From Embleya scabrispora (GTDB lineage Bacteria; Actinomycetota; Actinomycetes; Streptomycetales; Streptomycetaceae): DNA of 64,000 nt. Of this stretch, positions 14,402-17,754 are shown piece after piece (the stretch's first letter is position 1; each line of letters starts with the position of its first letter). The DNA is taken from positions 1,550,001 to 1,614,000 of the forward strand of contig NZ_MWQN01000001.1 of NCBI RefSeq assembly GCF_002024165.1, written 5' to 3'. Made by a program: the position numbers and the translations under genes. The notes beneath the pieces are model-generated. The model did no database searches, was not told the DNA's origin, and saw only the letters and a list, made by a program, of their open reading frames with translations.

Positions 14402-14815
14402 GTGCCTGATGTGACGATTACCGCAGGTGACTTCGATCGGCTCCAGCGGGCGGCCGCGCTCGCTTGGGGCGGTGCCCGCACGGCACTGGGGGTGGTCGCG
14501 CTGCTCGACCCGCCCCGGGTGGCCCGCCCCTGGATCGGCGACGACGCGGACCGCGTCGGAGCGCTGGTGTTCGCCCGCGCACTGGGCGGCCGCGACCTGG
14601 CGCTCGGCGTCGGCACCATGGTCGCGGCGGCACGCGGCGAACCGGTCCGCCTATGGGCCCTGACCGCCGCGGCCGCCGACCTCGGCGACGTCCTGATCAC
14701 CGCAAAACACGCCAGGGCCCTCCCCCGAGGCCACCGCACCTTCATCGCCACCCTGGCCGCCGGCTCGGCCCTGTTCGGCGCGGCTCTGGCAATCACGGAA
14801 CGCCAAAAACCCTGA
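14402..14815 (+). CDS. Small membrane protein, DUF4267-like
   Basis: 137 residues beginning MPDVTITAGDFDRLQRAAALAWGGARTALGVVALLDP (from GTG). Four hydrophobic stretches can be seen, separated by short loops containing RALGGRDLALGVGTMVAA and AADLGDVLITAKHA. The conserved GRD-L-x-L-G pattern in the middle is typical of the DUF4267 group of small integral membrane proteins of unknown role. GGGAG lies 7 nt before the GTG at 14402. The gene is divergent from the lipoprotein gene and is followed by an unusual repeat-rich gap. Confidence 0.7.
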   Translation: MPDVTITAGDFDRLQRAAALAWGGARTALGVVALLDPPRVARPWIGDDADRVGALVFARALGGRDLALGVGTMVAAARGEPVRLWALTAAAADLGDVLITAKHARALPRGHRTFIATLAAGSALFGAALAITERQKP

Positions 14816-14841
14816 AACAACACCCCCGCCCGAAGCACCCC

Positions 14842-14882
14842 CACGCCAGGCGCGAGGCACCGCACGCCAGGCGCGAGGCACC
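14842..14882. repeat. 20-bp tandem direct repeat (two copies)
   Basis: The 20-mer CACGCCAGGCGCGAGGCACC occurs at 14842-14861 and again at 14863-14882 with one spacer base. It is the left end of the repeat-rich gap between the DUF4267-like gene and the P-type ATPase gene. Confidence 0.9.
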
Positions 14883-14966
14883 CCCCGTGGCGCGTCAGCG
14901 CCCACGACAAGGGCCACCCACGCGATCGACGCGCGAAGCGCGGAGAGCGGCGGAGCCGCAAACCTT

Positions 14967-15007
14967 GGGCTGGGCGACCCGGAGCGAAGCGCAGGGGCGC
15001 CCAGCCC
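14967..15007. repeat. Inverted repeat with a GCGAAGC-containing loop
   Basis: GGGCTGGGCG (14967-14976) pairs with CGCCCAGCCC (14998-15007), and CCC/GGG pairs continue inside. The loop contains GGAGCGAAGCGC. It sits just upstream of a larger hairpin whose loop holds the same GCGAAGC heptamer. Confidence 0.85.
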
Positions 15008-15010
15008 CGA

Positions 15011-15069
15011 GCGAGGGGCCACTTTTCTGCGGAGGAGCGAAGCGGGGGAGCAGAAAAGTGGCCCCTCGC
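15011..15069. repeat. Perfect 20-bp inverted repeat around a 19-nt GCGAAGC loop
   Basis: Positions 15011-15030 are perfectly complementary to 15050-15069. The arms contain CCACTTTTCTGC and GCAGAAAAGTGG. The 19-nt loop includes GCGAAGC at 15037-15043. The stem is too long and too AT-containing in its centre for an ordinary terminator here, and it does not sit directly after either flanking gene. Confidence 0.92.
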
Positions 15070-15261
15070 GAGCCGGCGCGAAGCGCCCAACAAAAAGCCG
15101 CCGCCGCCGACATGCCCCCGCCCCGCCCGCTTCCCGGCCGGGCCCTCCCGACCGACCCCCTCACCAGCCGGCACAAGGCACCCAACAAACACCCCCGCCC
15201 CGATCGCCAGGCGACCGGGGCGGAGCTCATACCCTCACACCATCACACCGAAATCACACGA

Positions 15262-17754
15262 TCACGCCGAAACAGCCGGCGCCCCCGCCGCCGCGACCTC
15301 CAGAGCCAATCGCCGCTTATTCCAATAGGCGACCACCTCCAGCAGCAGCCCCGCGGCAATCGCCAGACCCACCGCGGTCCACGGCATCCGCGTACCGACC
15401 AGCTTGAGTTCGAAGAACCGCTGCAACCACGGCACCGTCAGCACCACGGCGAATCCGGCACCCATCACCAGAACCAGCGCTATCCGCCACCAGGTATACG
15501 GCCGCGCGATGATCGCCAGCACCCACAAGCCGACCAGGAACAGCGTCAGCGTCGCGATCGAGGTCTCCGCCGTACGCGTGGCATCCGTCGCCCCGTAGTG
15601 CGAGCGGGCCAGCAGATATGCGGTGAACGTCGCGGTGCCCGCGATCACGCCGGAGGGTCCGGAGTAGCGCAACACCCGCTTGACGAAGCCCGCCCGGGCC
15701 CGCTCCTTGTTCGGCGCCAGCGCCAGGAAGAACGCCGGCGTGCCGATCGTGAACCAGGCGAGCAGCGTCAGGTGCCGCGGCAGGAACGGGTACGGCACGT
15801 TGGCGATGACCACCAGGATGGCCAGCAGTACCGAGTAGGCGGTCTTGGTCAGGAACAGGTTCGAGACCCGCTCGATGTTCCCGATCACCCGCCGGCCCTC
15901 GCCGACCACCGACGGCAGCGTGGCGAAGCTGTTGTCCAGGAGCACGATCTGCGCGACGCCCTTGGTGGCCTCGCTGCCCGAGCCCATCGACACGCCGATG
16001 TCGGCGTCCTTGAGCGCGAGCACGTCGTTGACGCCGTCGCCGGTCATCGCCACGTTGTGGCCGCGCGACTGGAGCGCGGCGACCATGTCCCGCTTCTGCT
16101 GCGGGGTGACCCGCCCGAAGACCGTGTTGGCCTCCAGCACGTCGGCCAGCTCGTTCTGGTCGGTGGGCAGCGTCCGGGCGTCCACCGGGTGGTCGGCGCC
16201 CTTGATGCCGAGCTTGGCGGCCACCGCGCCGACCGAGATCGCGTTGTCCCCGGAGATGACCTTGGCGGCCACGCCCTGGTCGGCGAAGTAGTCCAGCGTC
16301 GCGCCGGCGTCGTGCCGCAACCGCTGCTCCAGCACGACCAGCGCCGCGGGCGTCACGTCGGCCCCGTCGGGGCCGCCGACCAGCGCGTCGACCGTGTCCG
16401 CGAGCGAGGCGTCGGTACGCACGAGCAGCAGGACCCGCAGGCCCTGCGCGCCGAGCCGCTCGGCCTCGCCCAGCAGGTCGCCGTGCGCCTGCGTGGTCAC
16501 CAGCACCTCGGGGGCGCCGATCAGCCACGTGGCACGGGCACCGGCCACCTCGAAGGTCGCCCCGCTGTACTTGCGCGCGGAGGAGAACGGCACGCTCTCC
16601 ACCGAGGCCCAGCCCTGCTCGGCCGGGCACTCGTCGATGATCGCGGCCAGGCTCGCGTTCGGCCGGGGCTCGGTGGTGCCGAGCGCGCCGAGCGCGGGGC
16701 GCACCGGCAGGCCCTCGGCCAGCTCGCGGACCTCGGCGACGTTCATCCCGCCCTCGGTCAGCGTGCCGGTCTTGTCCAGGCACACCACGTCCACCCGGGC
16801 CAGGCCCTCGATCGCGGGCAACTCCTGGACCAGGCACTGCTTGCGGCCCAGGCGCACCACGCCGACCGCGAAGGCCAGCGAGGTGAGCAGCACCAGGCCC
16901 TCGGGCACCATCGGCACGATGCCCGCGATCATCCGGGTCACCGCCTCGCGCCAGGTGGTGTCCTCCAGCCGGTACTGGCTGATGATCAGCGCGATCGAGG
17001 CCGGGAAGAGGATCCAGGTGACGTACTTGAGGATCGTGCTGATCCCGTTGCGCAGCTCGGACGCCACCAGCGTGAACTTGCTGGCCTCCTCCATCAGCTG
17101 CGCGGCGTACGCCTCGCGACCCACCCGGGTCGCGGTGAACGCGCCGTTGCCGGCCACCACGAAGCTGCCGGACATCACCGGGTCGCCGGGGCGCTTGATC
17201 ACCGGGTCGGCCTCGCCGGTGAGCAGCGACTCGTCGATCTCGAGGTTGTCGGCCTCGACCACGACGCCGTCCACGGCGGCCTTGTCGCCCGCGCCCAGCT
17301 CGATCACGTCGTCGAGCACGAGGTCGGACGGGGACAGCGCGATGGCCCGTCCGTCGCGGCGCACCACCGGCTTGGACTCGCCGATCACCGCGAGGCGGTC
17401 CAGGGTGCGCTTGGCGCGCATCTCCTGGATGATGCCGATCCCGGTGTTGGCGATGATCACGAAGCCGAACAAGCCGTCCTTGACCGACCCGACGGACAGG
17501 ATGATCAGCCAGAGCACGCCGATGACGGCGTTGAACCGGGTGAAGACGTTCGCCTTGACGATCTCGGTGGTGGATCGGCTCGACCGCACGGGGACGTCGT
17601 TGACGTCGCCCCGCGCGACCCGTTCCGCGACGTCCGCGGTGGTCAGTCCGACGCCGAGGCGTACGTTCGGTTCGCTTTCTTTCCCGTCGGGTCTGTCGAC
17701 CGGCGGGATGGCTGTCGTCTCTCCGGGCCCGGCGCCCGGCAACGGCTGAGTCAT
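15262..17754 (-). CDS. Cation-transporting P-type ATPase (CtpE-like)
   Basis: 830 residues. P-type ATPases move cations using an aspartyl-phosphate intermediate. Visible in order: actuator motif LLTGEADPV (a variant of TGES), membrane motif VPEGLVLLTSLAFAVG in the ion pathway, phosphorylation site CLDKTGTLTEGG with Asp327, hinge TGDGVNDVLALKDADIGVSMG, and about four C-terminal membrane segments. The VPEGL pattern without N-terminal metal-binding CxxC domains argues against a copper or zinc pump and resembles mycobacterial CtpE, linked to calcium uptake; the ion is inferred. The start ATG at 17754 has a weak ribosome site. Upstream in the same direction are the M16 peptidase genes. Confidence 0.88.
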   Translation of the reverse strand: MTQPLPGAGPGETTAIPPVDRPDGKESEPNVRLGVGLTTADVAERVARGDVNDVPVRSSRSTTEIVKANVFTRFNAVIGVLWLIILSVGSVKDGLFGFVIIANTGIGIIQEMRAKRTLDRLAVIGESKPVVRRDGRAIALSPSDLVLDDVIELGAGDKAAVDGVVVEADNLEIDESLLTGEADPVIKRPGDPVMSGSFVVAGNGAFTATRVGREAYAAQLMEEASKFTLVASELRNGISTILKYVTWILFPASIALIISQYRLEDTTWREAVTRMIAGIVPMVPEGLVLLTSLAFAVGVVRLGRKQCLVQELPAIEGLARVDVVCLDKTGTLTEGGMNVAEVRELAEGLPVRPALGALGTTEPRPNASLAAIIDECPAEQGWASVESVPFSSARKYSGATFEVAGARATWLIGAPEVLVTTQAHGDLLGEAERLGAQGLRVLLLVRTDASLADTVDALVGGPDGADVTPAALVVLEQRLRHDAGATLDYFADQGVAAKVISGDNAISVGAVAAKLGIKGADHPVDARTLPTDQNELADVLEANTVFGRVTPQQKRDMVAALQSRGHNVAMTGDGVNDVLALKDADIGVSMGSGSEATKGVAQIVLLDNSFATLPSVVGEGRRVIGNIERVSNLFLTKTAYSVLLAILVVIANVPYPFLPRHLTLLAWFTIGTPAFFLALAPNKERARAGFVKRVLRYSGPSGVIAGTATFTAYLLARSHYGATDATRTAETSIATLTLFLVGLWVLAIIARPYTWWRIALVLVMGAGFAVVLTVPWLQRFFELKLVGTRMPWTAVGLAIAAGLLLEVVAYWNKRRLALEVAAAGAPAVSA

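Follow-up and report, generated by a model that had tools for sequence, protein, structure and literature searches.

The gap between a 159-aa open reading frame ending at 14815 and a long minus-strand open reading frame ending at 15262 in Embleya is crowded with hairpins carrying the heptamer GCGAAGC, which raises the question of what kind of element they form and how it came to lie there. Positions refer to the window, the whole 64,000-nt stretch of DNA that was analysed (C1:1550001-1614000 of the 10.96-Mb genome). A preliminary description of the locus had listed four copies of GCGAAGC, two of them in the loops of long hairpins, and likened the arrangement to REP-like mobile palindromes. All four copies were recovered at their positions, all on the + strand, and every one of them proved to be a hairpin tip (of H2, H4, H5 and H6) in a set of six hairpins, so that the loop count of two was too low. 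The heptamer is not in excess in the window as a whole (17 observed, 17.2 expected), and the Poisson probability of four copies on one strand within 249 nt is ~5e-8.

The element occupies 14889 to about 15098 on the + strand and is a non-coding unit of ~210 nt with a core of six hairpins and an A-rich tail (Table 1), its boundaries being set, in an alignment of 66 copies, where the similarity between the flanks of copies ends. As single-stranded DNA (ssDNA), the + strand of 14889-15098 folds into the six hairpins with a z-score of -7.04; the minus DNA strand scores nearly the same (-6.62), and the element read as RNA is also significant (-5.80). The hairpins with a 10-bp stem and with a perfect 20-bp stem that had been described are real and correspond to the outer part of H4 (14967-15007) and to H5 (15011-15030 with 15050-15069), while the reported 20-bp tandem repeat exists with a unit of 21 nt and lies outside the element. 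On the 3' side of the H4 apex the window copy has GCA where nearly all other copies have GGA. By eye, no T run directly follows a hairpin on the + strand, where H6 is followed by the A-rich tail, which is not the form of an intrinsic terminator, and an Rfam search of the window gave no family near its cut-off for the element. A GC-rich, hairpin-like stretch at 15196-15230 was seen by eye just past the stop of the minus-strand gene ending at 15262, and judged in the same way it may be a better terminator candidate than the element.

Table 1. Features of the intergenic region, in window coordinates
Feature	Position	Strand	Basis
21-nt tandem repeat, two copies (14839-14859, 14860-14880), 95% alike; outside the element	14839..14880	+	Absent from other copies with flanks compared
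H1, GGCGC-GTCA-GCGCC; 5' boundary	14889..14902	+	Paired, invariant in 66/66 aligned copies
H2, GNA-triloop hairpin, GCGAAGC at 14933; tip GAA here, GCA in other copies	14930..14942	+	GAA 43, GCA 23 (66 copies)
H3, GCGGC-GGA-GCCGC, GNA-triloop hairpin	14947..14959	+	GGA in 63/66
H4, covarying stem, apex CC-GGA-GCGAAGC-GCA-GG, GCGAAGC at 14984	14967..15007	+	Both-side changes in 8/13 pairs
H5, 20-bp stem, fixed loop GGAGGAGCGAAGCGGGGGA, GCGAAGC at 15037	15011..15069	+	Both-side changes in 9/20 pairs
H6, GGCGC-GAA-GCGCC, covarying stem, GNA triloop, GCGAAGC at 15078	15075..15087	+	GAA 53, GGA 12, AAA 1 of 66
A-rich tail with probably one decayed unit of the 30-nt tandem repeat	15088..15140	+	3' flank comparison, 30-nt period in 3' flanks; decay probable
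Probably a partial, decayed duplicate of the 3' end of the element	15157..15194	+	79% identity to 15062-15099

A search for further copies, as the preliminary description had proposed, was successful. The H5-loop 20-mer occurs 52 times exactly in the window genome against 0 for a reversed control, and a 103-nt core matched over at least 92 nt at 40 or more places. Three sister species held 9, 19 and 10 copies of the 20-mer; in E. scabrispora DSM 41855, 10 of the 19 matches lie within 170 bases of a contig start, so its copies are probably under-counted. The 20-mer was found in none of the 37 other genomes covered by the same search, and in a phylum sample of 396 genomes it was confined to the window genome and absent from the other 395, so it is uncommon overall and clusters in particular genera. 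The 211-nt element query had no match among phages, the plasmid search with the element gave a single match (in Embleya sp. NBC_00888), and the sole exact 20-mer match among viral contigs was at 1959-1978 of IMGVR_UViG_3300021791_000005 (L236).

Among the loci fetched, copies occurred singly, as 13 inverted pairs measuring 481-518 nt across, and as one tandem array. The spacer of the inverted pairs is conserved, at 114-117 nt in 11 of the 13 and 141-150 nt in the other two. In the array (L052, 5600-7706), element copies follow each other at alternating spacings of 317 and 318, giving a 635-bp double unit. Doublets are not better conserved than singles (0.890 versus 0.896, permutation p 0.76). 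With gene positions taken from a simple gene caller written for the analysis, none of 33 element clusters overlapped a called gene; they fell at 12 convergent, 16 tandem and 5 divergent junctions, compared with 58, 155 and 47 of the 260 other junctions in these loci. Where a single copy lay between co-directional genes, it had their orientation in six cases and the opposite one in two.

Many copies carry a tandem repeat with a period of mostly 29-30 nt, located 3' of H6 past a linker of ~22 nt. It was called by autocorrelation (>=0.62, the 99th percentile of background being 0.61) in 24 of 44 copies of the window genome, a set from which the copies in the tandem array were excluded, and in 0 of 19 upstream flanks of singles. 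The units vary by locus and share a CGCGACTCCGGCC-like start. An array of 1.16 kb with ~40 units lies at 5270-6428 of L071, and locus-specific arrays of 29-30 nt were also observed directly 3' of the element at L066, L079, L072 and other loci. The window copy probably retains at most one decayed unit.

What is conserved in this family is the tip and not the stem. In 66 distinct aligned copies, 95.7% of stem cells are paired and both sides have changed in 17 of 53 stem pairs; covariation scored 0.181, compared with 0.089 in shuffled alignments and no more than 0.059 with slid partners. The H5 arms fall into 11 types; of 83 copies, 81 retain all nine loop-proximal pairs, one retains eight of the nine and one is mismatched. 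G-U (G-T) pairs are common in H5 (52/66 at alignment columns 150/197). H4 presents mutually dissimilar stem sequences on one fixed loop, constant in 80 of 85 copies, and H6 takes six different hairpin strings among the 66. Five of the six hairpins end in GNA triloops, two of these triloops being embedded in a larger loop of purines (GGA..GGA and GGAGGA..GGGGGA). In H4 the flanking GGA..GGA is reminiscent of tandem sheared G-A motifs in DNA. The GNA tip is present in 66/66 copies for H2, H4 and H5, in 65/66 for H6 and in 63/66 for H3, with N being A, C or G; many of the copies counted are related to one another, so the counts do not all represent independent events. Chance or base composition as the origin of the pattern is ruled out by the 52 copies against a control of 0, the covariation and the GNA counts. 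Trinucleotide GNA loops form very stable DNA mini-hairpins (PMC6479982, citing Yoshizawa 1997), and extraordinarily stable DNA hairpins have been described (PMC10527192). As the tips obey this GNA rule of DNA mini-hairpin chemistry, the weight that had been placed on the d(GCGAAGC) mini-hairpin was apt.

The family also differs between species at the window site itself. The element is present there in E. hyalina NBRC 13850, and E. scabrispora DSM 41855 and Streptomyces sp. SID3343 keep both flanking genes with no element between them, so that two species are occupied (the window genome and E. hyalina) and two are empty. The copies at the two occupied sites have different H5 stems, CTTTTCTGC/GCAGAAAAG for the window and CTTTTTTCTC/GAGAAAAAAG for E. 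hyalina, and different H2 tips, GAA and GCA respectively. Divergence of the intergenic DNA prevents a junction from being placed to the base, and in the flanks compared by eye no target-site duplication, as expected of a MITE of DDE transposons, was seen. Absence from two of the three sister species argues against an essential local role. Given these empty sites and the 52 copies, neither of the two situations in which the preliminary description was to be abandoned (no other copies in the genome, no strain lacking the insert) holds.

The loop is not restricted to Embleya. A 20-mer scan of genome contigs returned at least 119 stretches, the matches listed including Nocardioides, Nocardia, Flexivirga, Arthrobacter, Paenarthrobacter, Rhodococcus, Hydrogenedentota MAGs and a Haladaptatus, among others. 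For the 116 distinct listed matches, the mean pairing energy of the 25-nt flanks with each other was -25.7 kcal/mol, compared with -15.8 when flanks were swapped, and a C-G pair closed the loop in 110 of them. By inspection, the stems carrying the loop outside Embleya sort into several groups without relation to one another, and the loop recurs as a repeat in Nocardioides, Nocardia, Flexivirga and Hydrogenedentota. A loop version allowing N in the triloop was found in 21/21 genomes tried, 20 of which had been preselected for having a match, with a control of 0 in all. When all three triloop bases were left free in six other genomes, 132 of 139 matches were GNA (the exceptions being 1 ACA, 4 AAA and 2 CTG), and in Flexivirga endophytica GNA was found in 48/48, with N being A in 19, G in 13, C in 11 and T in 5. 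Rfam searches of 16 loci from other taxa gave only tRNA and SRP RNA. In Nocardioides-type matches (L107-L225), loop hairpins were observed at the junction of two successive genes, after the stop codon of the first and ahead of the start of the second; in 27 of the 41 rows parsed, the hairpin followed the end of an open reading frame of at least 100 codons by 4-7 nt, often at ATGA or GTGA. A literature search covering mainly papers outside subscription journals yielded no paper with GGAGGAGCGAAGC, none combining Embleya, repeat and palindromic, and nothing on this family among the papers listed. A survey of REPs (PMC3733652) centred on GTAG and CGTC repeats and RAYTs and did not contain the word Actinobacteria.

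The RAYT transposase that the preliminary description suggested looking for was not detected in Embleya: neither the Y1_Tnp profile PF01797 nor a profile (A2, E 0.1) of the RAYT subgroup that accompanies this loop in other taxa matched in any of four genus genomes. The A2 profile likewise had no match in the Nocardioides, Flexivirga and Nocardia genomes tried, and matched its own MAGs, a Pimelobacter MAG (2e-6) and, weakly, Haladaptatus. PF01797 was present in 5 of 20 named loop-bearing genomes, both Hydrogenedentota MAGs included, and had no match in 16 of 18 loop-carrying actinobacterial genomes (the window genome and 17 named ones). The IS91-type Y2 transposase profile PF04986 gave no match in four genomes, and its control was likewise silent. 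In the two Hydrogenedentota MAGs, RAYT-type genes at L282 (G052:C255, 1847-2968) and L296 (G051:C411, 1215-2100) have loop hairpins on both sides, on a stem that differs from Embleya's, so a RAYT-REP system can include this loop. Both genes pass PF01797; L296 is above the cut-off of the REP-associated transposase model NF047646, and L282, whose frame is shorter, reaches 55 where the cut-off is 80. At both loci, opposite-strand hairpins with a different loop on a similar stem were also observed. These are 2 of 27 Y1 matches in the two MAGs, with a rough chance estimate for the link of 3e-4 in one MAG and 3e-5 in the other; it is a post-hoc finding, as a first set of Hydrogenedentota RAYT loci had no flanking 20-mer loop and the link emerged only when more Y1 loci were examined. 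No such hairpin was present in the DNA fetched around five other members of this RAYT subgroup.

Embleya therefore carries a multicopy, intergenic family that is polymorphic between species and consists of six hairpins with covarying stems and constant tips. We consider it probable that the element in the window is one copy of a non-coding, non-autonomous, REP/BIME-like mobile repeat that acts as folded ssDNA, and that its mobilising enzyme in Embleya is not recognisably a Y1 or RAYT protein. That it is mobile is suggested by the distribution of copies and by occupied and empty sites. Counting against this reading, no Y1 transposase was detected in the four genus genomes, the flanks compared showed no target-site duplication, doublets are no better conserved than singles, and transposition itself was not observed. 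The working form would be the + strand as ssDNA, in which GCGNAGC could fold into very stable mini-hairpins, and a protein reading the loop may copy the element in trans on ssDNA; by analogy with the Hydrogenedentota RAYT loci this would most likely be an HUH-type nuclease, which in Embleya may be something other than a recognisable Y1/RAYT or may since have been lost. We infer an ssDNA rather than an RNA form because the tips follow the GNA rule, doublets contain the element in either orientation, and the 3' strand at the end of the NBC_00888 replicon has GNA loops (see below). The frequent G-U pairs in H5, the RNA fold, the nearly equal fold of the minus strand and the excess at convergent junctions weaken that preference. 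If the conservation of the tips under the GNA rule is borne out, the family is genomic evidence for a DNA fold under constraint in cells, and the 20-nt ssDNA loop is a ready bait for the protein that reads it. More speculatively, GGAGGAGC-GNA-GCGGGGGAG may be a cross-phylum ssDNA recognition signal that sits on stems without relation to one another, both in Hydrogenedentota and in no fewer than six genera of Actinomycetota. In the latter phylum a putative ssDNA-processing enzyme other than a RAYT might read it and disperse hairpin repeats of diverse structure, building the six-hairpin unit with its 30-nt array in Embleya and inserting at operon stop/start junctions in Nocardioides; we offer this only tentatively.

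One alternative explanation is a classical REP or REPIN family mobilised by a RAYT that has been lost from Embleya or has become too divergent to detect. Inverted doublets, clusters and singles are what such a family would leave, the same loop flanks RAYT-type genes in the two Hydrogenedentota MAGs, and CGTC REPs without a dedicated transposase and deletable REPtrons are described (PMC3733652). The empty profile searches in the four genus genomes and in 16 of 18 loop-carrying actinobacterial genomes count against it, as do doublets that are no more conserved than singles, and we think it unlikely. We give still less credence to an RNA element in mRNA 3' ends, kept by selection as a stabiliser, a processing site or an unusual terminator. 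It would fit the intergenic position, the share of convergent junctions (12/33 versus 58/260 elsewhere; divergent 5/33 versus 47/260) and the RNA fold, and it more easily explains the frequent G-U pairs of H5. Inverted doublets nevertheless carry both strands, co-directional singles point both ways, no Rfam family came near its cut-off, no T run follows H5 or H6, the tips follow the rule for GNA triloops, and the site is empty in two sister species.

A further thought, that gene conversion, or template switching in the course of replication, generates the hairpins and keeps their stems perfect while GNA tips are favoured for stability alone, agrees with stems that are near-perfect yet differ wholesale between orthologous copies, and with the locus-specific 30-nt arrays beside the element. 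By itself it leaves unexplained why the same 20-nt loop sits on unrelated stems in several genera, nor does it account for the dispersal of a 200-nt unit, and we regard it as very improbable. Hardly any weight attaches, finally, to the idea that the copies are internalised telomere-type palindromes which, resembling the ends of linear Embleya replicons, would be bound by the telomere protein Tap. The linear replicon NZ_CP108785.1 of Embleya sp. NBC_00888 (L280, L281) does terminate in identical inverted sequences, in which palindromes have the loops GTA, GGA and GTA on the 3' strand, and Streptomyces palindromes II and III, closed by sheared G:A pairs, are bound by Tap (PMC4513846). Against this, no sequence in common with the NZ_CP108785 telomere was seen. 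The loop is also abundant in MAGs and in genera that have circular chromosomes.

Comparison with known systems places the element as a variant within the interspersed palindromic repeats. Like Streptomyces-type telomeres, whose overhangs are described (PMC4513846) as folds closed by sheared G:A pairs, it has successive hairpins with GNA loops on one strand, but it is chromosome-internal and dispersed, and no telomeric ends were seen among 11 contig ends examined in the window genome's assembly. The Nocardioides loop hairpins at stop/start junctions inside operons recall the mycobacterial MIRU, for which insertion at start codons is described (PMC12548453); this likeness is one of position, and the Embleya copies do not lie at such junctions. 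With REP/BIME elements the family shares an extragenic, dispersed and palindromic nature, an occurrence as singles, inverted dimers and clusters, and conserved loops on covarying stems, and to that extent the preliminary likening to REPs stands. It does not extend to REPs proper, which are defined as 20-40 nt long (PMC3733652) whereas the Embleya element has ~200 nt and six hairpins, comes without a RAYT and has attached 30-nt tandem repeats; by eye, no GTAG or CGTC tag was seen at a stem base in the 66-copy consensus, CGTC occurring only inside H1, across stem and loop. On length, tag and transposase the element is therefore not a REP proper. REPIN-RAYT systems are matched by inverted doublets with a conserved spacer in Embleya and, on a different stem, by the Hydrogenedentota RAYT gene lying between hairpins with the same loop, and they differ in that Embleya has no RAYT and its doublets are no better conserved than singles. 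In behaviour, REP/BIME and REPIN elements (PMC3733652, PMC3116915) are the closest relatives of the repeat family described here.
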